Shown piece by piece: positions 3-63,905 of a stretch of 64,000 bases of DNA; position 1 is the first letter of the stretch, and each line of letters starts with the position of its first letter. The DNA is taken from positions 868,001 to 932,000 of the forward strand of contig JAVTLE010000018.1 in NCBI GenBank assembly GCA_033439295.1. The letters run 5' to 3'. The notes beneath the pieces were generated by a model. The model searched no databases and was not told the origin of the DNA. It saw only the letters and a program-made list of their open reading frames with translations. Both the position numbers and the translations under genes were made by a program. The stretch comes from Deuterostichococcus epilithicus (Eukaryota > Chlorophyta > Trebouxiophyceae > Prasiolales > Stichococcaceae).

Positions 3-773
3 CGGCTGCCGAGCGGCGAGCAGCGTGCGATCCTCGCGGCGTGCACCGCCACCATTGGCGCGGTGTCAAACCCGCAGCACGCCAACCGCAAGATCGGCTC
101 TGCCGGCTTCGCCCGGCACATGGGCTGGCGGCCTGTCGTGCGCGGCGTGGCGATGAACTCGGTGGACCACCCGCACGGCGGCGGGAGGTGCTTCCTGCTT
201 CTTTTTTTCGAAAATTCTGCTCCTGCAGCTGCTTCCCTGTTGTGCGCGGCATGGCGTTGAACTCGGTGGACCACGCGCACGGCGCCGGGAGGTGCCTCAT
301 GCTTCCTCTGCTGCCCGGCGCATGCGACTCTCTGGCACCTCGAGCCAACAGGCTCAGTCGTGCCCTGTGCTTTGCCCGAGTGTGCGACGTGGGTCGCAGG
401 GTTGTGCGTCGCAGCATCGCAAGCAGCTGGAAACTGTTGGCTCATACCCGCCTCAGGACAGGATGAGGATTGCATATCAAGTTTGCGAGTGCTGCTCAAA
501 TGTTGTCTGCCAGCCGCTGCGATGCCATTTGCCTGCTTGCAGCGGACGTGCTGGGCTGGGGCGCTACTTAGGCACTCAGCAGCGATAGACCTGCTGAGCG
601 CCTCTGAGCGGTAGGCCCATGCCGATGCCTCGTGTCCATCGTCGCGCAGGGGCAAGAGCAAGGGGCGCATCTCGCAGACGCCGTGGGGCATCCCAACGAA
701 GGGCTACCGGACGCGCCGCAACACGCGCACGGATAAGTTCATCCGGCTGTCGCGGCACAAGGCCCGGAAGTAG
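3..773 (+). CDS. Organellar (mitochondrial-type) ribosomal protein L2, C-terminal part
   Basis: This is the C-terminal half of bacterial-type uL2, a core protein of the large ribosomal subunit near the peptidyl-transferase centre. The gene enters from the left edge. Two exons are visible, 3-187 and 650-773 (TAG stop). They join as GGGAG + G to give an Arg codon. Exon 1 carries the uL2 signature [16 protein letters not shown]. Exon 2 carries [14 protein letters not shown] and ends [13 protein letters not shown]. This matches bacterial and organellar L2 ([23 protein letters not shown]), not cytosolic RPL8, whose equivalent is NPVEHPFGGGNHQH. A nuclear gene with introns for a mitochondrial L2 is the simplest reading; plastid targeting cannot be excluded without the N-terminus. 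The intron holds a decayed copy of the exon 1 end. Confidence 0.85.
233..309 (+). repeat. Exon-edge echo in the L2 intron
   Basis: About 70 nt repeat the last part of exon 1, its 5' splice site and the first intron bases (source 131-200), offset 104 nt. By eye about seven differences. The copy would read [18 protein letters not shown], so it derives from coding sequence but has lost conserved residues. Confidence 0.85.
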
Positions 774-1068
774 GAGTGACGTGCAAGCTATGGCGGCAGC
801 TGCGCCCTGCTGGCTTGTCCCGGCGGGCGGGCGGCTCTCCTTACGGCAACGGGCAAAGGCACCACGCCGTTGCAGCGCAATTCGAGCAAGCAAAGTTGCT
901 GTCCTGCTGGCATTGGTCCCCCCATGCTGGCAGACGTTCCTTATCTACAGAGCGATGGCCCGGAGTGTAGCAGAGTCTGGCGACACTGTCTCAGAACACA
1001 TGCAGCACCGGCTCTGGGCAAGGTTCATTGAAGCCAAAGCACTGTCGTGCAATCGCTTCTGGCGAGAA

Positions 1069-1073
1069 TGTAA
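1069..1073 (+). terminator. Candidate polyadenylation signal TGTAA
   Basis: TGTAA is the usual chlorophyte poly(A) signal. This one lies about 300 nt after the L2 stop codon. Position and orientation fit, but a pentamer can occur by chance. Confidence 0.35.
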
Positions 1074-1418
1074 CATGGGAGCTTCAGATGCAATTTTACA
1101 TGTCTCGGCATGGCTTCGCAAGTTGGCATGGCTTCACAGGATGGCGGCGGCGTGGCTCCATACTAGCCATGGCATGGCTCGGCAGCGGCGTGGCTCATAC
1201 TCTCGGCAGCGACACAGCAGATTTGGATACGCAGAAAGAATGCTTCGATCACAACTGATTAATTAGCTTCCATCCCATGTGTACCCTGCTGAGTGAAGGC
1301 TGGCGCATGCATAGAGGTGACTCGCTTCTCTGGGAAACTTGCGCAGATGGTGCGAGATGCTACAGACAGGTCAGGCCATTCGAAGGTAGGAAAGCTGGAG
1401 GCATGACAAAGTTCAGCA

Positions 1419-1598: not shown

Positions 1599-4103
1599 TC
1601 AGTCGCCTTGCGCGCCATTGAGGCGTGGCGAGCGCCGCCTCGCAAAACTCATCGCTGCCGCCTTTCCGTTCACCGTGATGCTGACGCCGCCGTCCTCGCC
1701 AGGCTGCCGCTCCCCGTTGGCGGCCCCGTCCACGGCCTCGCCCTCGATCAGCCGCATCGTCGTTGCTGCCAGCTGGCGTGACAGCGCCACAGAGACACAG
1801 AAGCCGTGCCGCTGCTGCGGCTCCATGACAGCCTGCCACGCCACAAGTGCTGCAGGTCAGAACCCCTGCAACACCCGTCGGGGATATACTTGCAAGTGCC
1901 AGGTGCACAGGGACACCGTGATGTTCCCTGGCGAGGGCGGATCGTGATGAGGACGGGTCATCATCAGTTGTGTCCCTGAGCGAACAGGCAACGGACGGCC
2001 TGTCATGTATTGGGACGTGAGTCCCAACTGCTGCTGCAGCAGAGGAGCACAAGGACCCCATGCTGCGACCCGCTGGCCTGAGCTCAGGTTTGAATCCAGG
2101 CCCTCCCCAGACGCCAACCGAGCCGGTCTGCAGCGCACGCACGATGGAGAAGTTCTGGAGAGGTGTCTTGGGCCCTCCTACCTGCACGCAGGGGAGGCGC
2201 CGCCGCAGCTGGAGCCACTGCGCCTGCGGGAACCACTTGTCGCGCGGCGCGCACACGATAGCTACCCGCCCGCCTGCAAAAGGCACACGTGCGCGGCCTC
2301 TTTTGCGCATTTGGGCGATGGCGAGCTGGAAGCAGGTATGTTTCTGACGCCCAGGCCATTGCGCGATCTGCCGGGCCCCGCCCCACCTCACTTGCGCCGA
2401 GTCAGCGGAGGGGCGGCCGCGCACTTGGCAGTAACGCTCTGCGCCACAGCTTCACCCCGCGCGCAGATCGTCCAGCCATGCAGGCCAGGGCGGACAGGAC
2501 AGGCGGAGGAGTCTGGCGGAGGCAGGGCGGAGGAGTCTCACCGAGGGACTCTATGAACGGGAAGTCCGCCGGCGCCCGCAGGTCCGCGAACTCGTGGCCG
2601 GCCAGGTGCAGCGCGTTGGCCACGTGCGAGTAGGACAGCATGCTCACCGTCGTCGACAGCGCATGCTCATCCAGGCCGCCGCCTGGGCTTGGCAGGCGTG
2701 GAGTCAATAGAGGCCGGGGCGGTGGGCGGCCAAGCAGCCGTTCCGGCGGTGCGTTTCATGGCTTTGACAGCGATGCTTGCGGCGCGTGCTGGACATGGCT
2801 GGAAGTATCGAGTCAAACGATCCGGCGGCCATGCTGAGCGGCATGTTGTCGTTCAAAACCCTGCTCAACAGAGGGAGGCTTCGCACACACCGGCGCAGCA
2901 CCTCACAAAGGCGCGCCGCAGGGGCGTCGGCAGCAGCGCCAGGCCGGCGGCGGCGCCGCCGACGAGCCGCGGCCACGCCGCCAGGTGCGACAGTGCCCAC
3001 TGCCTCCAGGAGGACGTGTCAAACTCCAGGAAGGGGAACAGCGACACCACCTGCAGCAGATTAGTCAGGGTGGGATCATCAGATCCCCGCACTTGCAGTG
3101 GCGCCTGTTCGGTGGGTGCTGCTTGAGCACCGAGGTACAGGTGTGCTTGTGCGCATGCTGAGAAACTCGTCCGGCATGTTACTTAGAGAAGGCTGAGGAA
3201 GCACTCGAGGCTGCAGCCCACCTTGCGGATCTGCCGGAGGTCGCCGTCCTCCCGGTGCAGCTGCTGCAGGTTTTGCAGCGCAATGTACGCGCCTGCAGAG
3301 GCCAGAAGGGGCTCGTGACTGCGAAGTTTATCAGCGCATCAATCGTCGCCATTCCTGTGAACACGATGACTCCATGTGCACGGCCGCTGCAGATGGCTGC
3401 ACATCCGCCGGTTGTCAGATGGCAGGGCATGCAGCTTGCACTGCATGTGCAGTGCATATGCACTGCAGATCTCACCGATCGAGTGCCCAATGAGAACGAC
3501 GGGCGGCCCGGCGGCCCCTAACACATGGTCCTGCAGCAGCTCACACAGCGCCGGCGGCAGATGGTCAGCCGACATGAGGGCGCACCAACAGACAGCAAAT
3601 TGCGCACACGCTGCAGCTGGCATGATGCCTTCAGAATTTTCATTCGGACGTCATGGCGTTCAAGGTCAGCCTTGCCTGCAGGTACAGCAGTTTGTGATCC
3701 GCTTGCTGCCGCAGGCTGAACACCTGCGGGGCAGTTGATGAAGTATGAGCACCGAGAACACCACCTCGGAAGCACCGTGGTTTGGAAGAAATGCTACATT
3801 GCAGGATGATGGACAGGTGTGTAATGTCCGGCTTTGCTTCAGCAGATCATTGCAGTCCTGCACCTCGCCGGTGAGGCCATCGCGGCACTGACCGAGGTTG
3901 CTGACCCCAACGACCTCCGCCCTGCCGCCCATCGCCTGGTGCAGCGCCTCCATATAGGGCAGGTAGTAGGCTGCATTGCCAGGGTTGCCAGGGTAGACGA
4001 TGATGCGCAGCGCCGGCGAGGTCAGTGCACCGAAGCCATACACTTCGGTCGGAAGGCCTGCTATCTGCACGTACTTGTGCCAGAATTTTTTCGCAGTCTG
4101 CAT
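1599..4103 (-). CDS. LDAH: Lipid droplet-associated hydrolase (LDAH / DUF2305 family)
   Basis: Alpha/beta-hydrolase of the LDAH family, thought to act on sterol or neutral lipid at lipid droplets. Exons read on the minus strand: 4103-3864, 3530-3476, 3292-3222, 3050-2891, 2682-2542, 2273-2182, 1832-1599. Phases close at all six junctions and give 330 residues, the normal size for the family. Visible features are the N-terminal IIVYPGNPGNAAYYLPYMEAL (oxyanion region), the nucleophile elbow GHSIGAYIALQ near residue 95 (split by an intron after the Gly), VSLFPFLEFD, then AIVCAPRDKWFPQAQW (acid region) and QQRHGFCVS (catalytic His region) near the C-terminus. The start ATG matches the beginning of plant homologues. 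The exon 1/exon 2 junction is the least certain; the exon could extend about 14 codons further. Confidence 0.85.
3437..3467. repeat. Short inverted repeat in an LDAH intron
   Basis: TGCACTGCA and TGCAGTGCA units alternate over about 30 nt and form a near-perfect hairpin just downstream of the LDAH exon coding GHSIG. Function unknown. Confidence 0.5.
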
Positions 4104-10648: not shown

Positions 10649-12536
10649 ATGGCACGTACTCCAGAACCCCCCGAGCAGCCCACGGCAACCGGAAAGCGTG
10701 ACCGAGACGTCCTGGGCATCGCTAGCACGGAGGCGTTGGATCACGAGCCAGGCCAGCAGCGGCGGCGGGTCGCCGAGGAATTTGGTGCGCATCCTGTGCG
10801 GATTTGGTGCGCATCCTGTGCAGGCGCCTGCGACCTGCATCGCAGCCTGAGACACCAACGGCTTTCCGCCATGCCTTGCGTGCAGAAAGGCCCTTTTGTA
10901 CCATCCGCTGCGGCAGGGGCGGCTTGTTCGCGGTCTTCCACACCGCAGCACGGCGCCGCGCTCGCATGCGGCATGCCGTCACATGCATCCTGACAAGTGC
11001 GTTCCTGTGCGCGTGCAGGCGAGGAGTACCTGACCAATGCCGCGGGCGAGCGTCTGCCGGACGCGGGCGACCTCGGCGACGCGCCGCCGCCGGAGAGCAT
11101 GTCTGAGGAGTTTCCGTCGGAGCGGCGCGAGGACGCGGATGACGCCGGACTCGAAGGCAGGTTCGAGTCCGAGGTGTTGCTGCAGATTATGCTCGTCCAC
11201 CCAATGCCTCATGTCTCATGTCGGAACGGTTGCGGCGCGCACCCTGCTTTGGGCCAGGCGGTCTACGTGGCGCTGCTGCTTTTGCAGAGGGTGTTGCTAT
11301 GTCGGACGGCTGATCCTGAGGAGCAGCGGGTCGCTGAGGCTGTTCGCGCATGGAGCCTGGGACCGTGCTTGCAAGATGTCAGCTTAGTACAATTGTGCTC
11401 GGCCTACGAAAGGGTGTCGTGCCATGGAAGGGGCGACCCACCGCACGCTTCTGTGTCCCTCGGCTGCGAGAGCAAGGCTATCATCCCGACCCGTGGACGT
11501 GACTGTGTCCGCAACAGAGGAGCGGCCGGGAGAGGAGACGGCGGGCGAGGTAGCGGCAGCGGAGGCGGCCGACGCGGCGCACCGAGCCGGCGGCAACGGC
11601 CAGGACGCCATGATCAATGCGCTCGCGGCTGCCGAGGACAGGTTCAACGAGCAGCAGCAGCCTGGCGGGTCGGCAACGGCAGGTGGGCAGCGTCAGGAAA
11701 CTGTGCAGAGCGATTTGCTGTGTGGCGCTGCCGGCAGTACCAGCCAAATGCGTTTGCGTTTGTGACACCGTCAGCGCCACCAGCCAAGGGCTGGTGTCAG
11801 GCTGAAAGTTTCAGGCGGCACAGTGGCCCCCACGCGCCAGGTGAGCCAGCAGGGCGACCGCCGCCCTACGCTGCTGGCAGCAGACTGCACTGAGGAGGCT
11901 GGGATGCGAGCGCAGGGGCCGGCGGCGCCGCAGCGCGCCCGTGGCTGCGGGGCAATGTGGCCGCCGGCGACGGCGCTGTGCCGCGCATGTATGCACCTGA
12001 GGTCGTCAGCGACGCCGGCCGCGCGGTGGCGCGGCAGCGCCTGGCCGCCGCGCTGGCAGGGAACGCTGCGGTGAAGGCAGCTGGCAGCGACGCCGCAGAG
12101 GTGGCTGCGGCGGCAGAGGCAGGCATCCACAACGCGGTGGCGTCCAGGTGAGTAGGTGGGCACATGGCAAACTGCCTTCGTTGATTGCAAGTCAGTGTGT
12201 GTGGCATGGCGTGTGGTGCTGTCTCTGTGGAAGCGCCAGTCTGTGGCCGGACTATCAACTCCCTATCCAGGGGGGGCGATGCCACACCCCCTTTGCTTCA
12301 CATATGCGGTGGAGTGCCATTAAAACAATGATGCAAAATCATTGTCCCTCAGGGCGGTATACCGAGCGGCACTCGCAAATGCGGTGCGGCTGGCAGCCGA
12401 AATCCAAGACACATCGGACCTTGCAAGAATAGCAGTAGGACGGCCGAAGGAGCCGCTGCAGGCGGGCGAGGCGCCACCACTGCCAGTGGATAGCAGTGGG
12501 CTGCAGGGCTCGGTGATTAAGCCGCGATATCCGTGA
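10649..12536 (+). CDS. Ala/Glu-rich protein of unknown function, possibly nuclear
   Basis: Exons supported by phase: 10649-10784, 11019 to about 11158, about 11508-11690, an exon ending at 12147, and 12353-12536 (TGA). The start MARTPEPPEQPTATGKRDRD is basic and Pro-rich. Exon 2 is acidic (EEYLTNAAGERLPDAGD..SEEFPSERREDADD). Exon 3 is an Ala/Glu helix-former (TAGEVAAAEAADAAHRAGG). The C-terminus (DAGRAVARQRLAAALAGNAA..GIHNAVAS..AVYRAALANAVRLAAEI) faintly recalls the helical central domain of TFIIS-like factors, but I cannot see that family's diagnostic residues. Exon 2 may use a GC donor (GAAG|GCAGGT). Function is not assigned. Confidence 0.45.
10780..10821 (+). repeat. Recent tandem duplication of a 5' splice site
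   Basis: A 20-nt block spanning the exon 1 donor (ATTTG|GTGCGCATCCTGTGC) occurs twice at a 22-nt period with no difference, at 10780-10799 and 10802-10821. It is the youngest example of the exon-edge echoes seen elsewhere in the window. Confidence 0.9.
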
Positions 12537-17965: not shown

Positions 17966-20900
17966 ATGGTAGCAGACCAGCACACCGTGACACAGGAGAA
18001 CCACAGCAGCAAGGACCTCGAGAAGGGCAGCTCAGCTCCCAGCCCAGCACAGGATGGCGCTTCCCATGGCGCAGACAATGGCAGTTGCTGCAGCTGCAGC
18101 TCGTGCAGTGGCACTGGCCGAAGAGGATGCTGCGGGAACGACAGCAGCCATCAGTGCAACGGTCCCCGCGCAAGAGGCGGACCCCGCAACGCAGCCTACT
18201 TTAAAGTCCGCCTGCTTACCTCTCAGCGCGCAACTCCGGACACATGATGCACAGCTTCATCATGCAGCAAGTTCGGGCACATGTCGACCTTGTGGGACCA
18301 ACTCGTCGATTCTCATCTGCAAGCTTACCAGCAACGATGCTGGAGTGGCTGACCCGATCAAAATGCCCTGCACCTGCAGCCGGCGCCTGCGCCAGCTGCA
18401 ACTGACCCAGAACTCTGTGGAGCAACGCAGGCACACGGCTACAGCAGGCCCGTGGGCGTGGAACACGCCGGCCTGTGGGGCATCGTCACCTTCAACTGGA
18501 TCGCGCCGCTGCTGTCGCTCGGCGCGCGGCGCGGCATTGCCGAAAACAGCGCCTCGCCATTTGTGCCAGAGCGCTGCGATGCCGCCGTGCTGGCGCGCCA
18601 GTTCGAGGCGCAGTACCGGAAGACGCGGGTGAGCATGGTTTGTGCAAACGCTGTGCGGTTCCTCCATGTCCTGTGCTGGCGCTACGGTGCGCCGGTTTGA
18701 GGTGCATCACAACAAGACGTTGATGCGCATGACCTGCAGTTGTGCACCGCCCGTCCCCGCCATGGCCTGTGGTCCGTGCGCCTGAGGTCGCAATGTGCTT
18801 TGTGTTGCCGAGGATGGTCCAGCTCCTGCTTGGCGGCTGCTGCTGCATGCTCAGCATGGCCGGAAGTACTGTGGCGTCGGGACATTCCCATGGCCTCGCT
18901 GCGATCGAACTGCGGACTTGCGGGCGCAGGAGTTGCACCAGCGTGCCGATGGGCGGCGGCCGCCTAACCTGCTGACCCGCACGCTGCTGGCGCTGCACTG
19001 GCGCGACATGGGCTGGCACTTCTTCTGGACGGCAGCGGAGGTCGCCATCAGGTGGGGCCCGGCAAGTGCTGTCTCGGCTTGCTGTGTCCTACCCTGCAGG
19101 CTCGTCGCTCAGCAGCAGCCGTGCATCCTGCACGCCCCAATTGCTTCTCTAGGCTTCGGCAGGCGGCGCCGCCCGCTGCTACTTGCATGTGCCAGTGCGC
19201 ACGAAGGCGTGTCCTGGCCAATTCCTGGCGGCCAAGATGCTGACGTGGCAGTAAACGCTCTAATGCAGGCTCGTGGCCCCGGTGCTGTTGCGCGGCCTGC
19301 TGCGTTGGCTGCGGTCGCCGGACAAGGCTGCCGTCGGCGGCGTCGGCCGCGGCTGGATGTGGGCGGTGCTGTTCGGCCTCACCGGCTACTTCCTCACCAT
19401 CGTGCACCACCAGCTGTTTTGGTGCGTGGCAGATTACATGGTCGTCGGCCATGTAGGCTTCATGCTGTGACATGAGCTGCACAATTGCGAGGAAGCCACG
19501 AGCGACGCCCAGCCTTGTCGAACCGCTGGGCGGCATCATGGTCAGGTCGTCGTTGCTGTCATAGCATGCCGGCGCGGCGAGGTTTGCCCCCGGCTTAGAC
19601 ACTTGAGGCGCCTACTGCATGCAGGTATGGCATGCGGATGGGCTTTGCCTGCCGCCAGCAGGCCATGGCGGCCGTGCAGGCCAAGGTGCTGCGGCTCAAC
19701 TCCGCCGCTATCGCGGACGTCACCACCGGCAAGGTGCGGCTCCATGTGGCTCTGGACGGCCCTGCCCCTGGCGGCTGCTGCGGCTGCCGGCCGGGCTGTG
19801 CATGCGTCCCTGCCGGATGTGCATTGCTGGGTTTCCACATAGTCTCACTCAGAAGTGCGCTCAGAAGTGCTCAGAAGCCATCGGGTCCACAGCTCGCACT
19901 CTTCTGTGTTCGCAGGTCGTGAACCTGGTCTCAAATGACGTACGGCGCTTTGACGACGCCGGGCCCTTCTGGGTGCACCATTCCCGCCTGCTCCTTTGCA
20001 CGATGCTACCCAGCTCCTGTCCGAATATCTCACACGAGCCTGCGTTGCGCAGCAGCATCCACAACTCTTCGCCCTCAGTCAAGGGCCCACTGCCTACCCC
20101 CGTCTTGCCACCATCAAGAAACGCCAGACCTTTTGCAAGGCACAACGGCTTGTTTCACGACAGCTACTTCCCAGCTCAACCTACTTCCAAGCACTCGTGT
20201 CCCGACAACCACCCAGGACCCTGCTGCCTGCGCAGGTGTTTCTGATCCTGGCGCCGCTGGAGCTGTGCGCGGTTCTGGTCATGGTGAGCCTGGAGCTGGG
20301 CGCCGCGCCCGCTTTTGCCGGAATCGCCGCGCTGCTGGCCCTCATCCCGCTGCAGGTGCTTTGAAGTCTCCTTTCCATAAGGCGGACATGCCGTTGGTGG
20401 CTCCGGTTCCGCCGCTCATCACAGGCCTGGCACTGGGCTGACGGTGCTGGTCTTCCTCCTGCCGAAGGCCATGACGATGCTCTGCTTCCCACAGAGGCGC
20501 TTCATCAGCCCGTCTAGCACGTGTTGTGTCAAGCTCGCCGCCTCAGCGCCGCTGGCGTGATGCAGACATTGTTGTGTCTGCTCACATCATTTAGAGACGT
20601 CATGAGCACCCATCGATTGCTGCTGCTGCTGCGGCGCGCGCGACGCTGCCGCGGCGCGTCAGGCGGTTTGCGGGGGAACAGTTGGCAGCGTCTGCACAGG
20701 TCACCTCACACCCTGCCAGGGTCGTCGCTCAGCTCCTGTGCCCTTTGCGCAGGCGACGCTGTCGCGGCTCATCGGGCGGCTGCGCGACCAGACTGCGGCG
20801 TTCACCGACGAGCGAGTGCGGCTGGAGGGCGAGGCTGTTGGCGGCGCGCTTGCCATGAAGATGCTGAGCTGGGAGGTGCCCCTGCTGGAGTCCATCGGTG

Positions 20901-41000: not shown

Positions 41001-41642
41001 GCAAGGCCCACCACCAGACCATCGGGAGCCCCAAGCGTATCGCCAACAGCTCGCCCGACGGCAGCGCCAACCAAGGCGCCTGCCGCAGCGCCGACAAAGG
41101 CGCCCACGAAGGCGCCAACAGCAGCGCCGACGAAGGCGCCCACGAAGGCCCCGACAGCGGCGCCCACCCCTAAGCTGGGAACGGCACTAACAGCAGCACC
41201 CACCACAGCCCCAACTGCAAAGCCCACCACCAGACCATCGGCGGCCCCAAGCGCATCGCCGACAGCTCGCCCGACGGCAGCGCCATCCAAGGCGCAAACA
41301 GCAGCGCCAACAAAGGCGCCCACGAAGGCGCCAACAGCAGCGCCGACCAAGGCGCCCATGAAGGCGCCCACAGCAGCGCCGACGAAGGCCCCAACAACGG
41401 CGCCAACAGCGACTCCCACAGCAAGACCGACTGCGAAGCCCACGGCTCGGCCAACAGCAGCACCGACGCCACGCAGGCCGCCGCCGCGCAGGCCGCCGCC
41501 GCAAACACCTCCACCGCGCAGGCCGCCACCGCGGGCCCCCCGCCGCGCAGGCCGCCACCGCGCAGGCCGCCGCCGCGCACCTCCAGCGGCTGAGTTGCTC
41601 ATCTCGGAGATGAGCAACCCACATAGCCCCAATAGTCGATGA
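32020..41642 (+). CDS. M43 pappalysin-like zinc metalloprotease with Pro-rich hinges and repeated extracellular modules
   Basis: Secreted metzincin, probably acting on the algal cell wall or matrix. The N-terminus has a basic region and a hydrophobic signal (ATALSLMLVAFLAFVGHAAG), then a long Arg/Lys/Pro/Thr repeat. Catalytic exons: 32020-32742, 32904-33014, 33246-33351, 33670-33799, 34055-34171, 34345-34475, 34600-34777, 34925-34938, 35097-35169. HEIGHWLGLSH (zinc site, residues about 437-447, split by an intron) and the Met-turn NYMGYT are intact. From 35287 follow a Ser/Pro hinge, two copies of a Trp-rich module, a second hinge and Cys/Ala domains (39797-39910, 40065-40406). The last exon (40599-41642) is an APTKAPT array. 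Phases close in the protease part and the modules, but not through the Pro-rich hinges, where indels or extra introns must exist. Two genes are possible, but the same reading frame recurs on both sides. Confidence 0.75.
32521..32690 (+). repeat. Tandem array coding RRPTK repeats
   Basis: About ten imperfect 12-15-nt units (AGGCGGCCCACAAAG type) encode a strongly basic KRRPTKRRPT tract in the protease pro-region. The array stays open in a second frame (AHKEAAHKEAA) because the unit length is a multiple of three. Confidence 0.85.
33811..33851. repeat. CCATG short tandem repeat
   Basis: Repeats of CCATG and close variants in the intron just after protease exon 4. Confidence 0.8.
35320..36195 (+). 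repeat. Ser/Pro-rich hinge (first)
   Basis: Nearly pure Pro/Ser codons of SPPPP type, as in pherophorin and extensin hinges. The frame giving SPPPP changes several times along the tract, and C-runs of varying length sit at the changes. Confidence 0.8.
36200..37216 (+). repeat. Trp-rich extracellular module, copy 1
   Basis: Starts PYDNSCDILNVDTCNLWRFS. Exons after the first are 36430-36560 (131 nt), 36717-36786 (70 nt) and 36944-37216 (273 nt). Motifs include EVYVPRLDFTFVLAP, WGLSWWEPAQMDWWYLADD and DFSLFWVPHNATDRYDSPS. I do not recognise the family. Confidence 0.8.
37387..38637 (+). repeat. Trp-rich extracellular module, copy 2, with its linker
   Basis: The linking exon 37387-37659 starts VCFYNCPLFG, runs through a short Pro hinge and opens the second module (PYDNSCD). 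It is followed by exons 37795-37925 (131 nt), 38099-38168 (70 nt) and 38365-38637 (273 nt), the same three lengths and splice phases as copy 1. Ns fall in three codons. Confidence 0.85.
38800..39480 (+). repeat. Pro-rich hinge (second)
   Basis: Repeats of a PPPSPPPRPPPGPPPR type, with unit GCCACCGCCCAGGCCCCC-like. One unit near 39210 lacks a base relative to its neighbours and shifts the frame. Ns lie at its start (about 39044-39054). Confidence 0.75.
40740..41480 (+). repeat. APTKAPT repeat array
   Basis: Encodes about 250 residues of APT-x-APT type, including a larger repeat beginning KLGTAVTA / KLGTALTA at about 40956 and 41172. The array is open in more than one frame on both strands, a result of its three-base-multiple periodicity. 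Likely an O-glycosylated stalk (inference). Confidence 0.8.
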
Positions 41643-43699: not shown

Positions 43700-46600
43700 T
43701 CAGACGTGCAGTCCGATGGGGTCTGCCTCGTCATCTCTTCCTCTCTGACACGGGCTGCCAGACAGGGCGGCCGGCGCTGCCGTTCTGCGGCGCGCGCCTG
43801 GCGCGCCCTGCGACGAGACGCTGAGGCCGTCCATGGCGGCGTGCAGCGGCGCCAGGTGCTGCGTCTGGGACTCCAGCGCCGCGATCTCCTCCGCATCCTC
43901 ACTCGCGCGGCGCAGGTGCGGCGACGCCGGCGCGCAGCCCAGGCGCACGCCCATCTTCACCAGAGTCTCCAGCGACTTGGCGCTGCAGGTCGGGGGGCCA
44001 GGGGTGAGGGCACAGGGTTTGGGTCCAGCGGACTTGCGCTGCAGGGTGTGGGCGCAGTTCAGGTGCACGCCCGCCGTCACAAGTGCCTCCAGCGATTCAG
44101 GTGCCGCAGGGTGGGAGAATTTTTTTTTGTTGCCTGACCGCTGCAGGGTGGGAGCACAGCATGGGTCGGTACCAGCGGCGCCCGCCAGCACGAATGGGCA
44201 CATGGTGGAGCAGCGAGCCGACAACCGCCCAGCAATTCCGGCGTATCTGCCGATGGGGGGTGAGCGCGCATCAGGGCAGGAGTTTTGCGGCGCCCCCGGG
44301 GGCAACAGCCAGTGTTCGACAGCATGGCATGAGCAACGCCGAAAGCCGCAGGGCGCGGCTGCAGGGGTCCTTGGAATGTGCGCGGTGTGTGGGGGCCAGA
44401 CGGTGGCGAGGCACGTGAGGAGTGCTGCGCTGTCAGCGACTCAGCGGCGAAGGGTGCACAAGTGCACGGGAGCTGTGCCGCCCACTCGCATCCGCCGCGC
44501 GACGCGCGAATGCGGGGTCACGTAGTCGCCGGCAAGGCTCGGATCCTCGCGCAGCGCACCAGGCGACCCGACCCAGAGCTGCCGCGCCAGAAACTGCAAC
44601 TAAAACAGACAGGGTGAGTGCCCGCTGCACCTGTTGTGCAGGAGGTCCTGGTCGACGACGAGCGCGTCCTTGCCGAACAGCGCGATGACGGTGGAGCCGC
44701 CGAAAGCAAAGTAGCCCAGCTCGTCGCCCTTGGCGTACGACTTGCCCTCCTCCGCCGTGAACACGATGGAGCCCACCTGCACAGGGGTGGGGGCGGCACA
44801 CAGTGGGGGCTGACGAGTCGGATGATCAGCGGCCAAGGGGCGTACGCTCCGGCCTCCTCCGCCATGCAAGCGATCAAGGGAGACGAGACATGCGCTGCCA
44901 TGGCTCCGGCTGTGTGCCCCTGCTGAGCTCGAGCGTTCCCCAAGACAAGATTGGGGGTTCTCCAGCTGTATTTCCCCTGGCACCTCACGAGCCCCATGCC
45001 GCTGCTTGGGGTGCCGACACACCCGCGGTGCCTGCTGCCTGCTGCCGCGACGGACGTGCTGCGCCTCACCATTGTGGCGCCGATGGCGACGATGGCGACG
45101 GGTCCGAACTCCGGGCTGTCCAGCATCACCACCGCCCGCTTGTTCTGCGCATGGCAGATGACGACGATAGCTCACATGCTCACATTTGCTCACATATGCT
45201 CATATGCTCACATATCAGGAGACAGGCACCGCAGGGGCCGGCGCGCTTGACTGCCTGCAGTGTCGCCTCCACAGCCTCACGCTCCTCGAACGCTTTGTCG
45301 ACGCAGCGCAACGGCGCCGCATGGCACCGCAGACATGCAGATGGCGGCAAGCGGCCGCACCAAGGTCGGGTTGCGCGCGCTACCCAGTCTGGTCCCACCC
45401 AGCCCAGCGTAGACGTACGAGTAGTGAGCAAGCACACAGCACCACGTGCGGCCGCACCTGGGTGAACACGTTGGCGTAGGTGCTGGCAACGGCGATGGGG
45501 TTCACAGTGTACAGTTTGCCGCGCACGTGGCGGATGGAGCGCAGCGTGCCCGCCACCGGCAGGTGGAAGCGGTGGTAGTCCTGCGCGGAGTCACAAAGTC
45601 GGGGCTTAGTTCACAGAGCCTGGCTCACGGCGTGTCCACTCCTTGAGGTTTGCAGATGGCTACAACTGCACTGCTCAGTGGCACGAAGGCGACAGCGCAG
45701 GTGAGGCGCAGCGCGGCTGCAATGTGGTCAGGCTTGCATCTCCGGCGCTGCTGCGCAGCCGCCGCCGAACGCCTGCACCTTGGGGCCACGCATAATCCCG
45801 CAGCTCGTAACCAAAACAAATGCCAACCTCCTGCACCAGTTGCGGCGCTGGCGAGCTATCCTACTGACTATGTCCCAGAATCGCGCCTGAGGCGCGAGCC
45901 GGAAGATGAACATGCTGCCGCCCTCAAAGGCGGGCGCCAGCGGCTCGCTGCCCTGGGCTGCCTTGCTGCCGTCCGCCAGCAGGCCCGCCACCGAGAAGTT
46001 GCGGCCCTGCGGAGCACCGATAGAGAAGCCACATCAGCGACAGCGGCGATAGCAGCAGCAATGCACTGGCCGCCCGGCCGCCTTGCTGCCGTCCGCCACC
46101 AGCAGTCCTGCGAGCGAGGCCTTGCGGCCCTGCGCGGCTGAGGGTTTGGAAAAAGACTGCACAACCCGGCATCCGACAGTGGCATCCAGGGTATAAATTA
46201 TGGGCCGCCACTGAGGTCGTCTCTCCCCGACCCTTCACAGCTCGCCGCTGCAGCAGCCCAGCGCGGCAAGCCGCCGACTGCCTGCCACATGGCCAGCAGC
46301 ATACACCAGCAAGCTTTTAGGATTTCCATCTGCAACAGAGCGTTCCAGCTGACCTTGATCCAGCAGCGGGTGGCGTCCGAGACGCTGGCGAACGCCGACA
46401 GGCGGCAGTCCGCGGCAGACACCGCGACGTCTGCATGCTCCAGCTGAGCGATGGGCCGCGCACTCGGCTTGAGCTTGCGGTAGAAGAACTGCAGCCGCAG
46501 GACACAGAGTTTCGATCAGCGCACTTGCATACGGCCGCCGTCTTGATGAGCTCAGCCCAGCGGCTTTTGGCGTGTGAGTGTCCGCTGATGGGCCGCCGAT

Positions 46601-49600
46601 TCTGCCTCGTGAACAGGATGCAGCAGAAAAATTATACGCATCCAGGCGGTCACAGTACCTGCATCGTTGGCAGGCCTCCAAGGGCAGGCACTGAAGAGAG
46701 GAGCAGGATCCACACACTCAGCACTCAGCCGCGGGCGCAGACCTCGTTGAAGGTCTTGAAGCTCTCCACCGGCTCCAGAGACTCGCTGATGTCCACCTCA
46801 CCGCTGAAGGACTTGAGGAAGGACGGGATGTTCTGCGGTGCAAGGGGGGGCCGGCAGGGTTTACTGGGCGCTGACAGGTTCAAGGGACACTGACAGGGTC
46901 GGTTGGGTCTCGCCGCAGAGCTCGTCAAGCACCTGCACCAGGCATGTGGCGGCGCGGGTGGGGGGGGTGGGACGCGCAGGCGGTGCACCNGTCTGTGCAG
47001 GCAGTCTGCAGCCTCCAGGCGCAGGTATTGGCGTGCAGTCCCGGAATGCAGCAATCGTCCGTGCGGTGGATGCTGACACTCCGGCTACGCTGTCGGGGTT
47101 GCTGAGATCAGGCACACCTTGACGGAGTCGGGCGAGTCCATGTGACGGCCCTCCTCCTTGGACATCAGCTCCAGGCTGTTGTACGCGCCCGTCTTCATCA
47201 TGACCGCGCCCATCTGGTGTGAAAGAAGGTCAAAGTCAGTCAGGACTCAGGGAATCTCAGAGCTTGAACACTCGCATGGAGCAGAGCGCGCGTGACAGCT
47301 TGCGCCAGGCCGCTGTTTGCTCCCCGTTTTCATTGACCGCGCCCATCTGCACCAGCAAAGGCATTCCAAATGGGTGTCTCGGTCGGCATTCGCGCAAGGG
47401 AGGGCTCTGTCGCCAGGGTGCACGCCCATTTCATCAGGACCGCCCCGGCCTGGATGCGGGAGCGGCGGTTTGTCACCCACAGAGTCTTGCAGGCACACAT
47501 TTGGCGCTCAGAGTCCCCCGTCCCTCTGCAGTGCATATGTCCGGTGCAGGGCACAGCGCAGTGTCATACACGACAGGGGGCGCCTTAGCGCACCGTCGCG
47601 GCCAACATGGTTACCATGTCGCAAGGCGTGCCCCGCAATTTTCGGCGAGTTCGAGAGGTCTGGAGCAGCACCGTGCACCCCGCATCTGGTACATGTCTGG
47701 TACATGATGTGCTTGTGCAAACAAAGCTGCACGTGCGCAGCCGGCTCCAGTACATGTTGCGCGTGGCCAGCAGCAAAGTGCGGGGCTGGTCTGCTCCTCC
47801 ACCAGGCGCCGGTCACCTCGCCAACTTCGCAGAGTACTCCTCGCAGGTTCCTGGCTTCCGGGGCAGGCGCAACCACCCCAAGTCCGGCACAGGCTCCGCC
47901 CTCGCTTCCAGGGCTGGGGATGCATTCGCACCCGGCTCTGGTACATATTGCGCATGGCCAGCACCAGCGTGGGACTGATCTGCTCCTCCACCAGGCGGTG
48001 CGACGCCCGGTCGTAGACGATGATGCGGCTGAAGTTGCCCTCGTCGCCCTTCGGGTCCAGCGCCTCGCCGGCGGACAGTGCCCCACCCAGCGACTGCGGC
48101 GCCCACTCGGACATCTTGAGCATCCAGGTCTCGCCCGCCTTGGTCGGGTCCTCGCTGCCCTGCGGGTTTGGAAACACTCTCGCGTCAGGGGTGTAGGCAA
48201 TGGAGGGGTTGGGGGACGCCTGGGCCGGGGTGGCGGCCGCGCAGGCGCTGCCGCCCCGCTGCTTCTGCAGCAGCGCCGGCCTGCGCATCTGGGTCAGCAA
48301 CATGCGTGCCTTCCCTTGCTGGAAGGTTTCAGGCGTGACTTGGTGCTGTGCTATGGCGAGCACTGCAGCAGGCGCAGGCCTCCGAGTCGAGGCCTGCCTG
48401 GACTCGGCAGGAGGTGCAGCCAGCATCCTGCTGGCAGCAGCACACAGCATGGCGGCCCGTGCACGCAAGACCTTACTCGTGCGATGCACCATTTGTGCAG
48501 CGCGCTGTATGAGGAGGGGGCCTGCACTCGGATTGCCTTTCACATACGCGTACCTGCAGGGTGTCGCCGGAGCCCTGGTCCATGCACAGGGTCATGTAGA
48601 TGAGGTTGCCCCAGTCGTCTCCCGGCACCAGCTCGGCTCCGCTCACCGGGCACCGCTTGATCAGCTGTGCGGCAGTAGTTAAAGCACCGCAGTCAGCGCC
48701 TCGTCAGCCGGGCACCGCTTGATCAGCTGCGCAGCAGCGGGCCGAATCAAGACCTCAATGCGGTCGGCGCCTTGCTGGCCGACGCTAGTATGTGCATTGA
48801 TAGGCGCCAATGGTGTGTAGCCCTCACATACTTTCCTGTGCCGTCGGATTGGTTTCGGACTTGTCAGGGACAACTCGCGTGTATTGCAGCTCTGCAGGCA
48901 GTCTAGAAGACGACGCGAGCCAGGCCGCCACAGCGATGGCCAGCCCACCAGCGCCATGCGCTGCATCTTGTGTCCCTGATATCCTTCGTGTTGACAACCT
49001 CGTGCTGTGGTGTCTGTTGCAGCCCAAGGGGCCCTACCTTGCTGATCTCGCCGTCCGCGTGCGCGCCGGCGAGGCACGCTGCCAGCTCCTCCTCGTTGAC
49101 GTCATCGGAATTGTCCGCATCCGCCTTGTGGTACAGCGCCTCGATTTCCTGCTTGCTCAGCTCCGTGCCAAAGGCCTGAGTAGACATGAGAAACCCACTT
49201 TCACTTTGGCAGGCATACACTCGTCGGCGTCCGCCTTACGGTACAGCGCCTCGCCCTCCTGTTTGCCCAGCTCTGTGCCGAAGGCCTGGGCTGTGCAGGA
49301 AGGACGTTTCTCGGGCTTGGTCAGTGCCCGCCAGGAGCTTGCGCCTCCGCAGGAATGCCCTGTCGGGTCAATGCCCCTGTCAACAGCAAGGGTGCCGAGT
49401 CTTGGGACAGGTTGGAGCCGGCCCGGGCAAAATATGGAGGCGCACCTGCATGAGGAGCTGAAACTCGGACAGCTCCAGGCTGCCGTCCGCGTTGAGGTCT
49501 GCAATCTTGAGCGCTCGCCCCCAGAACTGCTGCTCCAGATGCTGCGGGCCAGGACAAGCGAGACATACGCTCAGGGGCGGTCCGTGTCGCCTGCTGAGGA

Positions 49601-51889: not shown

Positions 51890-54800
51890 CTAGTAACGCC
51901 GCTGGCCGGACGAAAACAGCAGCATCGGCTTGCCCTTCTTCTTGTTGCCGCCGCTCCTGTCGCCGTCCTCCTTGACCAGCGGCCGCAGCACATCCGCCCC
52001 CACAGCCGGAGACTTCGGCGCCGCGCCGCCAGGGGCGCTGCCTCCCGCAGGCGATGTGTTGCCCCACGGCAGCGGCGGCGCGGGGCTGCTGGTCGCCTTG
52101 TCGGCCTTGCCCGCTGCACCAAGGCCGGGACCCCAGGGCTTGAGCCCGCCGCTGGCGCCCCACACGCCGCCCGCCGCCGGAGACGCAGGGTTCGAGCCTG
52201 TGCCACAGCAATTTCTCGCTGCGTGATGCACGGCGCAGCTTCCAGCCACGTGCAGCACGTCAAGCAATGCATCCAGGCGTGCCACGCTGTCACCAAGTGG
52301 TGCGATCTGTCTGCTATCCGGAGATATTCACGTATGCACAACATGTGCAACACCGACCTTGGCAGCGGCACGCAGTGCAGTGCGGGCCGGTGGTGGCAAA
52401 GCCCAGGCATTTCTGTTGGTACAGAGGTGTGCTGGGAGCAGCCCGGCTGCACGAGAGCTCCATGTGCGATGGCGGGGGGCAGCAGCATCACCTTGGAGCG
52501 GCGAGGACCCCAGGGTGGGCCCGGTGGCGGCAAAGCCCAGGCGCGCCATGCTGGCAAAGGACACGCCGGGGGCGGGCGGCGGCGGGCTACCGGCCTCGAT
52601 GCCTTCCCCTGCTTCCTGCTGCCGCCCATCGGCCAGCAGCGCCGACTCTGCGAGCGCCGCCGCGAGGTCGTCGTCCGGGCTGCCGCCGCCGGCGCGGCGC
52701 GCCAGCGCGGGGCGCGGCATGGCCTGCAGGGCACAGGAGGACAGCTTCCCGTCAGAGGCGCCTGAGGGCTGTTGTTCAGGAGAGTCCAGGGGCCAAGACA
52801 GGACTGAGAAACACCGGCTCGACGCGTCCGCCGTTCGGCCTCGAGAAGGCATGCTCATACCCCGGATATGTGTCCCCGCATGAAGACAAGGCCTGCCCTC
52901 CAACATCCAAAGGCGTCGCTGATGGCACCAGCAGCTGCAGGACTCAAACCCGCATGTTGTCGCTGATCCGGGTTCTGGTTGACTGAAAAGCCACACGTCA
53001 GGCGCAGGCCTGTCCGCTTTCACGGCTGCTGTCAGGTGCGGCACCTGCAGCTCGGCGGCGGTCGGGCCCGCCGCCGAGGCCGCCGCGGCGCGCTCTGACG
53101 CGGCCTCGCGCTCCACCGCCGCCGCGTCCGCCGCCGCGCGCGCAGCCCGCCGGGCAGCGCGTCCGGCCAGCTCCTCCGCAAACGCCTCCAGCACGGGGCC
53201 CGGCACCAGGCCCGACAGGCCCACGTCCACCAGCGTGAACGAGCCTGCGCGCAGCGGCGTGCACAAGAGTTTCGAAAGTGGTCAACAATGTGACATGGCA
53301 TGTGCAAGACCAGTACGTGGCCCGGCAGCAGCCCCTGACGGGTCCACGCCCGCCAGCATGAAGGAGCCTGCGTGCAGCGGCATGCAGAAGAGTGTCCGTT
53401 ATTTGTAGTTGTCAGCGAAGCGACAAGGTTTGTGCACATCCTGGCAGCAGCCCCGGCAGGTCCATGTCCATCAGCATGAAGGAGCCTGCGCGGCGGCATG
53501 CAGAGCAGTGGCGTGCGGAAGGTTTGCGACCGCGCCGCGACATGTGCAGCGTGAAGCAACCTGCACTGCAGCTACAGTATGTTGCACCACGAGGCAAGCC
53601 AGGTAGGCAGGACTGGAACTGGCAGTACACACCATGCTTTCGAAAATATGCACATGAAGGACACTACACGCCAGGCGGCGCCAGCGTTAGGTGCGAGTGG
53701 GCAGTGCGGCATGGCTGCCACCAGAGGACATGGACAGCGGCGCTCGAGAAACCTTCTCTGGTCCACGCAGCCACTGCGATCGGCGTTCCGCCACTGGCCC
53801 GCTCACCTCCCAGCGGCACATGCGAGAGCGTCCGGTAGCGCCGCCGCGTCGCTGGCGTCTGCTCGACGCGCTCCACCTCGACCACCCTCGCGGAGAAGCT
53901 CGGCCGCGCATCCGGCAGGGCGCCGCCAGCCGCCGCGGCCAGCATGCGCGCCGGCAGCGAGGCCAGNAAGGCTGCCTGGCCGTCGGCGGCCTNGTAGAAG
54001 TGCTGCTCGGCGGGCAGCGGCGGCGGCGCGGCGCCCGGCCCCGCGGCGAGCCGCCTGCGTGGGGTGACAGACCTGGCGTCAGCAAAGTCCATCGCCTGAA
54101 TCATCTGAAGACTCTGGGTTGTTGTGCGGAGCCTGCTACCTGCTGGCCACGCACCTCCTGTCCAGGGGGCAGGACGGCCCTGCAGGGTGCCCAGCTGCTC
54201 GTCCGTGACACAGCTGCTCGTCCATGTAACACAGCCTGGCGGCTGGCGCCAGCCCCCTGCCCTGTCCTCCACTGCCTGTCCAGTGTTTGCAGCGACCAAG
54301 CCCAGGCCGCTCCCGACAGTTTCTATTAAGAACAGCCAAAACAAACAGCAGGTTCTGACCTGAAGGCGCAAACGCGGCGTTGTCCGAGCCGAAAGACGCT
54401 GCCAGCACCTCCACAGGCGGTGCCGCCGCTGGCTGCTGCTCCTCAGCCCCCGCTGCATCACGAGCCACAGCCGACAATCTGTTGTGGGTTCAGAGGCTGG
54501 CTACTGGCAGCACAACAAGCCGCCTTTGCAAGCCGAGGGCCTGAGGTGCGAAGCGGTGAAAAGCAGACAGTTCCATCACTCGGCTCCACCACAGCAGTTT
54601 TGTGCTTCCCACTGTGACTGCAAGAACAATCGAAAGATCCGAACCTACCTGCTGTGAGGCTGGCCACATCCTCGTCAGAGAAGGCAGCCTCTGCGTGCTC
54701 GCCGTGCCCGCCTGCTCCGGCGGCTGCGTCGGCGGCAGACTGCCGGCCGCCAGGAAGCGTCGGGAAAGCTGCGGCGATGGCAGCGGCCTCTGCGGCACGG

Positions 54801-59815: not shown

Positions 59816-62800
59816 ATGCCGCAGGCTGGCGCCTTTGCGACGCCAATGGGCTCGCCCACGTCGGCGGCCACGCGTGCGCGCATCGCCAGCGGCGGCGCCG
59901 CCAGCTCGACCCGCTCGCTCTCAGACTTCCCGTCCCCCCGCTCCAGGTACTGCTCCACTGTGTATCGTTTTTAGGACCCCAGGCATCGGCAGCCGCACCT
60001 CCTCAAGCGCTCTTCTCAGCGGCGCCACCCTGGCATGCTGGAGCCTGTTGCACACGCATGCTTCATGACGAGGTCGCAAGCCATTGCTGTTGCTGTGGCT
60101 CATAGTGCCGATGGTAAAACATCACATGACAGGAGCGGCAGGGACCAGGTGGTGTACAGTGACCGCTTCATTCCGTCACGCTCGGCGGCCGCGCGGCGCA
60201 ACTTCTCGGCGCTGGACCGCGAGTCGGCCGCCTCGGAGTCGGCGCGCTACTCCGACCGCGAGGTGGGGCTGAGCGCCAGGGCTTGTTGAACATGCGAGGT
60301 CCAGATGGCCGGGAACCCTTGCAGCGGGCAGCGCCGGGCAGTGGCAGCGCGCCTGCAGCGGCTTGCGGACGCTGGTGCACTTGCTGATGCTTCGAGACAG
60401 TCCGAAAACCCGCCACAGCCACTGACACCCAAGGCTGTGGTCCGAACTCCTCAGGCGTATCCTGCGGTCGATGTCGCCTGCAGCTGCTGTTCCCAGGGCA
60501 CCTGGCCAGGCGGCAGGTGTTGCACAGATGCCCTGTGCCATGGAGCCGTCCATAGGGCAGCGCCTCCCAGGCTGTGCATCCTACGATTCGTCGCTGAATC
60601 CTCGACACTGCTGTGCAGGAGTCCAACCCGGCGTACCAGCAGCTGCTGCAGGCAGAGCTGCTGGGGCGGCCGGCAGCCGGCAGCCCCGAAAAGGCCAGCT
60701 TCCGCGACAATGCCGCGCCTGGCGGCCTCGGCAGCCCCAGCCACAGCCCCGCCAAGAAGATGCTGCGCTTCCAGGCTGGCGACAGGTGCGCCGGCAGGTC
60801 GCGGCGCCTTGATCCCAAGATATGCCCAGAGCACAAAATGGCTAAGCTGGAGTGGCAGGCACTCCAAGACGGCGATCGGCTGCAGCTCCTGACGGGTGTT
60901 GAGGGCGCTGCAGTTGCGGGGCGATCATGCCACAAAGAAGGGGGGCCGACGGTCCGCAGGGAAGGTCAGACCAGAGCCACGCAGCGTCAGCCCCTGACCC
61001 CTCCGCTTGCGACGCACCGCAGGTTCAGCCCCATCGCGGGGCCAGCAGCCACCAGCCCCTTCATACGCAGCCCCGTGGGCAGCGACGCGCCGGGCGCCAC
61101 CGGGCCCGCCTCGCCGCGGCGCGCACCTCGCAAAATCGCAAAGTCGCCCTACAAGGTGGGTGGGGGGGGCGCTTGTGCGTGTCCACGGCTTGTCATCCCA
61201 TGGCTCCAACCATGGCCAGCAGCTGACCGCCGGCCTCCTGCTGCATGAAGCTTCAAGTGTCATACATCAAGCTTCATGAATGTGTGAGGATTGAGGTGCT
61301 GCACGAACGGCAGTCACAATGCGGCTGGGATTTTGTCTGCACATGCCCAAGCGCCGGCGCTGCAGGACCACCTTTGCATTCGGGAAACTGGTGCAGTTCA
61401 CATCCGGTATAATTTCACAATCGTTACAGTCACACAAGTCGTTGTTAAAGCAGGTGCTGGACGCGCCGGCGCTGCAGGACGACTTCTACCTCAACCTGGT
61501 TGACTGGTCCGCGCAGAACGTGCTCGCCGTCGGCCTTGGTGCGCTCTCTAAACTCTGAATTATTCAGCTGACTGTGAAACTCTGCTCCGTCTGCCTGGCT
61601 TGCTGCCGCTCGCCCATGGGGCGCCGCAGCCGCCTCCTTTGCCCGCGCAGCAGCGGCAGCCCCAGCCGCACGAGCGCCCCCGCATCGGCCGAGCCAGCTT
61701 CTGGCAGAACCGCCGGCGTCGCCCCAAAAGCACAACCGAAACCCTGACAATGGGAGTATGGAAGAGCGTCCCAAGTGAGACACGTCCCGGCTCAGGCGGC
61801 CTGCCTCGCGCGCGCAGGCACGTGTGTGTACCTGTGGTCTGCGGCGACGTCGCGGGTGCACAAGCTGTGCGAGCTGGGCACCCCCCACCAGCCAGACAGC
61901 GTGTGTTCCGTTGCCTGGTCGGGCCGCGGCTCCTTCCTGGCTGTCGGCACAGCCCGCAACGAGACCCAGATCTGGGACGTCCAGAAGTCGCAGCTGTGAG
62001 TGCACCTGTGGTCACTGGCTCGACTTCCGATGCGATACATGTGTTGGGGTATGTATGTGATGGCTGATGCGTTTGCTGCCGGCCCCTCATGCCGAAGGCT
62101 GACGAGGTTGCACCCCTTGCCGCAGCCCCCCGCGTCAGTGGCAAGCAGTGCTGGCTCGCCATGCTTCCCCGCTCCGCAGTCCGATCCGCCCGGCCTGCCG
62201 GGTCATGCACCCTGCACCACAAGGCGGCTCGTTCTCCAGACATCGGAGGACTCCTCCTGGCCAAATGTTGGAGGCAGACACTGACAGGGGGCTGTGCCGC
62301 TGAACCCTGAACCCTGCGCCACAGGGTGCGCAGCATGCAGGGCCACCGCGCACGGGTGGGCTGCATGGCATGGAGCAGCCATCTGCTGTCGACAGGCAGC
62401 CGCGACAAGACCATCCTGCAGCGCGACGTGCGCGCGCCCGAGGACTGGACCAGCCGCCTCGCGGCGCACCGCTCGGAGGTGGGGCCAAATAATATTTCAA
62501 TGTTGGCCCACCCTGGAGCGGCAGGGCCAGTCATGTGTTGCAGTCTCTGTCGCTTGCAGGCATGCTTTGTGTATGGGCCACCATGGCAACGCTTCCACCT
62601 GCCTGCTTCTGGGCACCTTGCGGCCAACATCGCACGTTCAAATGGCGCAGACAGCATGCTATTGTCTGTGCCGTGCTCACCCCGCCCAATGTGCGCGCTC
62701 CCTGCGCGCAGGTGTGTGGCCTGAAGTGGGCGCCGGACGACCGGCAGCTGGCGAGCGGCGGCAACGACAACCAGCTCTACTGCTGGTCCTCCACATCCAG

Positions 62801-63905
62801 CCAGCCCGTGCTGCGCTTTGATGACCACCAGGTGCATCGCTTGTCCGCAAGCTTCGCTAAGGAGACAAGCCAGAAGACAAAATCAACTAGTGCGCATCTT
62901 GGTCGCTCCATTGTGTGCCCTCGCGGCGCTATGTGGGTTCGGAACCTCCTCGACAGTCGGTGCTGTGCTTCGATGACCATCAGGTGCGCCTTTGGATCAG
63001 GGTTGCGGAGTTTCTGCGAGCACAGACTTGTGCAATGTGACTACAGAGTCGCATGAATGTAACCATTGATGCTTGTTGGTGCTGCGTTTAGACGGCCGTC
63101 AGATGTCACCTGCCCCACCTGGCGTGCACCCATGCTGCAAATTTCGGCGTCATGTCTTTGCAGCATTGCCCAGCCAGCCTGGCGTGCCGCAATTTGCACG
63201 AAGCACTCGCACACTGATCCAGAGGGCTCGATGTGTTGAGGGCGATAGACTCTGATCAGAGTCTCTCGTTGAACAGCTATACTACCCCTGGGTCAGTCAC
63301 CTCTAGGATGCCTTTCTTGACCAAGGCAAATCACTGCGCATCCCGCAGGGAATGAAAGCAGGGCTCGAGACTGGCATCACAGCGCAAGACCCTGATCTAC
63401 ACACACGTACACATCCGTCCAGCCCCCAATCAGTGCTCAGCCGCCGAGCAGGCTCGTGAAATCCCTGTAAAACGCAAGCACACCACCGCCCTGCACAGGC
63501 GGCGGTCAAGGCGATAGCGTGGAGCCCGCACCAGCACGGGCTGCTGGCCAGCGGCGGCGGCACCGCAGACCGCTGCATTCGCTTCTGGAACACCGCCTCA
63601 GGCGCCGCGCTCACTGCCATCGACACCGGGTCCCAGGTGCGCCGCTGCTGCCGCTGCTGCTGTTGCGGCAGCTGCTGACCTGCTGTGGCGGCAGTTGATT
63701 CTGAGATAGAGTGAATGGTGCTCATGGCAGATGCAGGCCAAGCAGGCGGCACATCTTGCCAAAGTCCTGCGGATGCTGCAGGCATGTTCCGTGAACCCTG
63801 CTCATGCGCACGTGATCACCGCTGCCCATGGCACAGGTGTGCAACCTGTCGTGGAGCCGCAATGTCAACGAGATCGTGTCGACGCACGGCTACAGCCAGA
63901 ATCAG
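59816..63905 (+). CDS. CDH1: APC/C activator CDH1 / FZR (CCS52 type), 3' end outside the window
   Basis: WD40 co-activator that brings D-box and KEN substrates to the anaphase-promoting complex in late mitosis and G1. Exons: 59816-59946, 60142-60262, 60619-60785, 61023-61155, 61454-61538, 61818-61995, 62325-62478, 62712-62831, 63499-63636, 63837-63905. All phases close, giving 432 residues so far. The N-terminus has Ser-Pro sites ([15 protein letters not shown]) fitting CDK control. The C-box reads DRFIPSR near residue 50, and [20 protein letters not shown] leads into the propeller. Repeats show [70 protein letters not shown] and STHGYSQNQ. These separate it from CDC20. About 60 residues including the terminal Ile-Arg must lie beyond the window. 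Confidence 0.93.
61341..61386 (+). repeat. Exon-edge echo before CDH1 exon 5
   Basis: Copy of the exon 5 start (source 61450-61490), 112 nt upstream. It reads [10 protein letters not shown] against [10 protein letters not shown]. Confidence 0.8.
62953..62990 (+). repeat. Exon-edge echo after CDH1 exon 8
   Basis: Copy of the exon 8 end and donor (source 62799-62840), offset 152 nt. The DDHQ|GT region is recognisable and the GT is kept. Confidence 0.8.

Follow-up and report, generated by a model that had tools for sequence, protein, structure and literature searches.

Decayed direct copies of exon borders within introns of the green alga Deuterostichococcus epilithicus

Work by Gao and Lynch in 2009 is said to have dealt with tandem genomic duplication as a form of intron gain. 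A review names tandem genomic duplication as the sole route of intron gain demonstrated in vivo (PMC3443670). In the potato RdRp gene, a tandem duplication across an intron-exon border accompanied by intron gain has been described as a case of one gene, and the same paper reports an 83-bp duplication inside an intron (PMC4974935). Natural insertions of 10-1000 bp in rice include tandem or partly tandem duplications as well as non-tandem insertions whose sources lie within 200 bp of the break (Vaughn and Bennetzen 2014, cited in PMC7407515). Finally, fill-in by CST and Pol alpha-primase at staggered breaks has been found to generate small tandem duplications in mammalian cells in which breaks were induced (PMC8355091).

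Here we analyse a window of 64,000 nucleotides from Deuterostichococcus epilithicus (contig JAVTLE010000018.1, positions 868,001 to 932,000), in which segments at exon-intron borders recur, in direct orientation, inside the adjoining intron. These copies, which we call echoes, resemble the potato case in that there, too, the 3' end of an intron and the start of an exon were directly duplicated at an existing border; however, the potato event gave rise to a new intron, inserted exonic sequence and concerned one gene, whereas here the proteins that we checked are unaltered and 35 of 520 predicted introns bear an unambiguous echo, with sizes clustering near 118 nt (PMC4974935). The echoes share with the AGGT model of Rogers a tandem genomic duplication that carries splice signals but, unlike the events of that model as the review outlines it, they create no new intron and do not abut the distal splice site (PMC3443670). 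Like the rice insertions they are tandem or partly tandem duplications, but the rice insertions, as cited, come with neither a link to splice borders nor a mode near 118 nt (PMC7407515). Border-crossing tandem duplication is thus already known from single genes, and what is new is its frequency and preferred size; in the open-licence PMC literature that we searched we found no account of frequent exon-edge echoes of a single size. The cause is likely an event of a kind already known, unusual in how often it occurs and in the size it favours.

Echoes in the window and in the sampled genome

The genome from which the window derives comprises 46.8 Mb in 21 contigs, and we sampled it through the window and 21 further 10-kb stretches (274 kb in total). 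Exon positions are predictions, made from the DNA alone, of a gene finder trained on the window and the sampled stretches, which was given an exon-length prior, its first version having predicted far too many tiny exons; seeding by codon periodicity yielded only 15 ORFs. The finder converged on a CAG/GTGCG donor, a GCAG/G acceptor and a median intron of 238 nt, with 520 introns in the 274 kb. Pfam matches identify L2 (Ribosomal_L2_C), an ABC transporter (ABCC), a PS decarboxylase (PSD) and a CDC20/Fizzy protein (CDH1), RNF10 being a putative name. Some exons were missed, with about 25 residues that are present in CDH1 homologues absent from the CDH1 model. Conversely, a number of echoes were miscalled as exons (49199-49285 in PSD; 53317-53367 and 53438-53485 in RNF10), and such calls indicate how much the echoes look like exons.

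Within the window we counted 31 ungapped direct repeats scoring at least 16 at offsets of 12-419 nt and none at control offsets of 3000-3407, in both cases leaving out 32.54-32.70 kb and 35.0-41.7 kb as low-complexity; 12 of the 31 have offsets of 108-131. The original prediction placed echoes in at least 16 introns of six genes, and we find 17 loci in 16 predicted introns of those same genes: one each in L2 and the gene at 10649, five in ABCC, six (in five introns) in PSD and two each in RNF10 and CDH1. Its offsets, measured by eye, were recovered mechanically at 22, 62, 84, 89, 104, 110, 112, 114 (twice), 117, 118, 122, 123 (twice), 133, 152 and 191 nt, with 63 the one value that did not return as a separate pair.

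On the forward strand, the end of an L2 exon (to 187) plus 14 nt of intron (132-201) is echoed at 236-305, at an offset of 104 and with 90% identity, and exact 20-nt copies at an offset of 22 lie across a predicted donor (exon end 10784) of the 10649 gene, at 10780-10821. In ABCC, two exon starts, 20747-20779 and 28582-28620, are echoed at 20634-20666 (offset 113) and 28468-28506 (offset 114), and 21924-21959 has two weak echoes within 21778-21875 (offsets 146 and 84). The other two ABCC loci concern exon ends with their donors: 23826-23870 is followed by two successive echoes at 23940-24073 (offsets 114 and 203), and 27803-27859 by one at 27920-27976 (offset 117) in which the intron part is similar too (p = 0.01). 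CDH1 carries an echo of the exon start 61463-61483 at 61351-61371 (offset 112) and one of an exon end with its donor, 62802-62835, at 62954-62987 (offset 152).

PSD and RNF10 lie on the reverse strand. In PSD, echoes of exon starts are found at 44052-44095 (source 43932-43975, offset 120), 46066-46134 (45944-46011, offset 120-123), 47294-47349 (47161-47216, offset 133), 48708-48737 (48646-48675, offset 62) and 49223-49288 (49113-49178, offset 110), the last being the PSD echo miscalled as an exon; for its source, a reading of the encoded EF-hand region suggests that the true exon start is probably about 27 nt upstream of the modelled one. A donor-side echo at 47728-47808 (source 47921-47997, offset 189-191) shares its predicted intron with the one at 47294-47349. 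RNF10 has an echo of the exon end 52518-52542 at 52384-52408 (offset 134) and, beside the exon start and acceptor at 53188-53273 (border 53244), two further copies at 53310-53492 whose units of about 120 nt align whole, making this a decayed tandem triplication.

To compare borders with background, each predicted exon border was aligned, with gaps and a threshold of 18, to its own intron, for the 477 introns of 100-1500 nt that contain no N. Direct matches were obtained for 40 of 913 borders, where foreign introns predict 0.75 and Markov shuffles 0.2 and where the reverse complement gave 2, so that the alignment of exon ends with their own introns bears out, on other contigs as well, the earlier claim of real duplications in many genes. 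Broken down by side, donors contribute 14 of 453 (expected 0.25 and 0.05 from foreign introns and Markov shuffles; inverted 0) and acceptors 26 of 460 (0.50 and 0.15; inverted 2); in these reverse-complement tests of borders inverted echoes are near background. In a matched design, a score of 18 is reached by 36 of 862 borders, by 3 of 465 pieces from deeper in the exon and by 10 of 1565 tiles of intron; from foreign introns about 0.6, 0.2 and 2.1, respectively, would be expected. Borders also match the exon across the same intron at a score of at least 18, donors in 2 of 381 comparisons and acceptors in 5 of 379, slightly more than expected (0.1 and 0.3), and none of 50 CDS ends has an echo scoring at least 16, an underpowered comparison with the 2-3 expected from the border rate. 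Overall, about one predicted intron in fifteen (roughly 7%) holds an unambiguous echo. The pattern is real and is found across many contigs of the sample; because most copies differ by 5-30%, an assembly fault is unlikely.

Size, anatomy and decay of the echoes

For all counts by class we left out low-complexity and highly repeated stretches, offsets below 24 and near-duplicate pairs of one locus. In a histogram of offsets, pairs that involve an exon cluster at 119 ± 16 nt (mean and standard deviation of the 39 pairs at 84-160), and those near 200-245 include copies made in a second step. Counting pairs that are not wholly exonic, density is 0.54 per nt at 84-165 compared to 0.13 at 166-247 and 0.23 at 40-83, in agreement with the preferred spacing claimed at the outset. 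This size band holds 39 of 67 exon-involving and 5 of 17 intron-only pairs (p = 0.055 for the enrichment). Offsets need not be divisible by three (counts of 17, 15 and 7 for the remainders), as opposed to exon-exon pairs, 16 of 18 of which are in frame, and they vary less than the readable length of the copies (coefficients of variation 0.15 and 0.43).

The duplications were originally held to enlarge introns or to move splice sites. Enlargement is what we see: median length is 407 nt in the 35 introns that carry an unambiguous echo versus 231 nt in the other 485 (p = 1e-9). Even with 118 nt subtracted, the median of the echo introns is 289 nt as opposed to 237 nt for other introns of at least 85 nt (p = 0.04); echo introns are thus longer by more than one unit, and the event therefore probably added about a whole unit rather than merely overwriting intron sequence. 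Movement of splice sites finds no such backing, the outer site keeping the protein intact, as judged by CDH1 homology and the L2 domain match, and the echoes decaying without coding constraint. The exon joints beside both CDH1 echoes align without gaps to a solved Fizzy-related protein (8tar), and the joint at 62831 is gapless in algal homologues as well. Among CDH1 relatives, a repeat-inflated moth protein ranks first, followed by an MMETSP transcript and by green algae such as Myrmecia and Trebouxia.

How far do the copies extend? Across 44 pairs with offsets of 60-165, excluding those with both copies in one exon, similarity sets in some 65 nt into the exon, is highest at 5-45 nt from the border and drops within about 20 nt of intron, leaving a weak remainder deeper. 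Copies had been described as usually keeping the GT or AG; this holds in part, with the ungapped match stopping within the exon, before the GT or AG, in 20 of the 44 pairs. Acceptor-side echoes outnumber donor-side ones by 31 to 13 (p = 0.01), or by 24 to 12 without ambiguous pairs. We also scanned the border in 50-mers, comparing them with dinucleotide-preserving shuffles at a score of at least 18. Rates are 4.7% and 4.3% for 50-mers that start at -50 and -30, 0.8% at -10, 0.0-0.7% from +10 to +50 and 0.6% at -90; the 0.8-2.0% found from +70 to +110 fits copies of copies, and at -110 and -130 (1.7% and 2.3%) the comparison is partly one of exon with exon. Mean scores against foreign introns show similar shifts for border and intron pieces, a comparison confounded by local composition.

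Exon and echo mismatch at 73 of 509, 80 of 510 and 106 of 497 first, second and third codon positions (0.143, 0.157 and 0.213), with 92 synonymous and 167 non-synonymous differences. Reading the codons in this way, the slight third-position excess looks to be the amount that synonymous drift of the exon would add. Decay is near-even over codon positions, and the echo is therefore without coding constraint: junk, not a spare exon. An exon copy of this kind offers a nearly unchanged reference, from which the ages, sizes and mutation spectrum of events can be read, and the echoes amount to a countable, datable trace that points to one route of intron growth, in which each event would add about 118 nt.

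Origin of the echoes

On balance we think it rather probable that echoes are decayed remains of the extra copies left by direct duplications, about 118 nt in size, across exon-intron borders, tandem or nearly so, and that they stay readable through selection on the exon copy. Imagine such an event: the reading frame would be restored only by the outer splice site, leaving the copy inside the intron, where it would decay as junk while selection fixed the exon copy. By analogy with rice and mammalian cells, such duplications were probably produced when staggered breaks or paired nicks were repaired through fill-in and end joining. Fill-in by CST and Pol alpha-primase would be a candidate machinery, demonstrated in mammalian cells with induced breaks (PMC8355091).

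Whether whole units were copied should be visible in the spacer between the two readable segments. In RNF10, three units align over their full length (53188-53572), and the intron parts of the arrays in one sampled stretch, L025, align once an indel is allowed. More generally, of 43 pairs, 13 have a spacer similar (p < 0.05) to the intron flank that it should match and 6 have one similar to the other flank, which serves as the control; four of these six lie in arrays, whose copies should match on both sides. Paired tests between spacer sides are not significant (p = 0.15 and 0.10 in the first tests, 0.13 in a tolerant local test, which yielded more single hits). Several of the least-decayed pairs (L2, ABCC 23826, L010 7118, L019 1762) have a spacer without similarity, and in L2 and L010 similarity ends sharply. 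Simulated tandem duplications at a divergence of up to 0.2 have a similar spacer in 0.6-0.9 of cases; old tandem copies, at a single-copy divergence of about 0.3, resemble the data and young ones do not, whereas a spaced model fits the data when all ages are mixed. Given this mixed spacer evidence and the simulations, we call the events tandem or partly tandem.

The spaced model corresponds to a different scenario, which we regard as unlikely: copying specific to the edge at splice borders, whereby 30-65 nt of exon edge enter the intron along with filler of unrelated sequence, about 70 nt long, and what is fixed is the spacing and not the copied length. The spaced simulation with mixed ages gives the best fit to the length of the matches, their closeness to the border and the similarity of the spacers, with z above 2 in 0.20 of cases where we observe 6 of 40. 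The scenario would likewise account for the peak of the 50-mer scan (4.7% and 4.3% at -50 and -30, against 0.8% at -10 and 0.6% at -90), for the scarcity of matches in intron-only tiles relative to borders (10/1565 against 36/862 at a score of at least 18) and for the lack of echoes at CDS ends (0/50). However, similarity extends over whole units in arrays, the 50-mer rate rises again at -110 and -130 (1.7% and 2.3%, though partly exon versus exon), the spacers have no common sequence, with 10 of 895 spacer pairs similar compared to 8 of 895 random ones, and age effects are able to produce similar deficits.

These age effects deserve attention. When a duplication crosses a border one copy would be under selection, so that the pair should diverge at about half the rate of an intron-only pair. 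In simulations, border-crossing tandem copies are detected with frequencies of 0.90, 0.70 and 0.38 at single-copy divergences of 0.2, 0.25 and 0.3, compared to 0.36, 0.08 and 0.05 for intron-only ones. Under a constant rate the size band should hold, by our estimate, about 30 intron-only pairs, and 5 are seen; old events alone would yield about 6, but then the small number of young pairs needs a second explanation. The specificity for exon edges that was originally proposed is, going by these simulations, partly an effect of what stays readable, which may not account for all of it. This anchoring by the exon copy explains much of the border excess and could explain all of it if most events are old, as the most legible ones likely are, and a residual true preference for splice borders may also be compatible with the counts. 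We hold it doubtful that splice borders are a hot spot for copying of a fixed size (about 118 nt), with introns in this lineage growing as they take in ghosts of their own exon edges. If true, such a hot spot would tie a lesion of DNA repair or replication to splicing or to exon-bound chromatin, and if the border preference holds under full annotation and across strains, a mutational process would be linked to splice sites. To our knowledge, such a link is not an accepted idea.

Three further explanations fare worse than border-crossing duplication. Echoes might be products of ordinary slippage, or tandem repeats without a set size, that look tied to exons through the selection of examples, and short-unit repeats are indeed mostly intron-only (6 intron-only, 2 intergenic and 2 exon-involving at offsets of 24-59); we nevertheless consider this improbable as a full account, since pair density at 84-165 is four times that at 166-247 and the border controls are near zero. 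Functional alternative or poison exons are more improbable still: although there are echoes whose ends still resemble splice sites and which the finder takes for exons, mismatch by codon position (0.143, 0.157, 0.213) reveals no coding constraint, and there is no insert at the CDH1 echo position in the solved Fizzy-related protein or in the Myrmecia, Parachlorella and MMETSP homologues. Birth of the introns from duplication of AGGT-bearing exons, or from insertion of an introner with target duplication, is likewise very improbable, for while donor (CAG/GTG) and acceptor (GCAG/G) look alike here, the first would require the echo border to abut the distal splice site, a distance that is zero in 0 of 44 pairs, exceeds 130 nt in 34 and is negative in 8 (a model intron shorter than the offset, mostly from an echo called as an exon), and an introner should recur among the spacers, where we find no common element (those same 10 similar pairs in 895 versus 8 in 895).

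Other repeats in the window and the sample

Dense arrays, with three to four decayed copies of acceptor and exon start at offsets of 111-163 nt, occupy L025:395-5006 (C19:200395-205006). Judging from a motif, the exon beside one of these arrays presumably encodes a DNA cytosine methyltransferase. At L010:7118-7436 there are three copies, two of which share 35 identical bases in a row across the border (about 85 of 95 overall); the identity ends abruptly towards the intron and might reflect a patch of gene conversion.

Intron-only tandem duplications with short units occur at 24512-24631 (61 nt, 84% identical) and 26106-26172 (35 nt, 81%) of the window and at L016:1299-1401 (51 nt, 94%). Elsewhere in the window, a 15-nt repeat at 32559-32669 encodes a (KEAAH)n tract, and 35283-41593 is a proline-rich region that contains a 216-nt repeat as well as a few ambiguous bases and that we take to be pherophorin-like. 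The exons that precede this region read like a secreted metalloprotease, presumably, on the strength of the motif HEIGHWLGLSHP.
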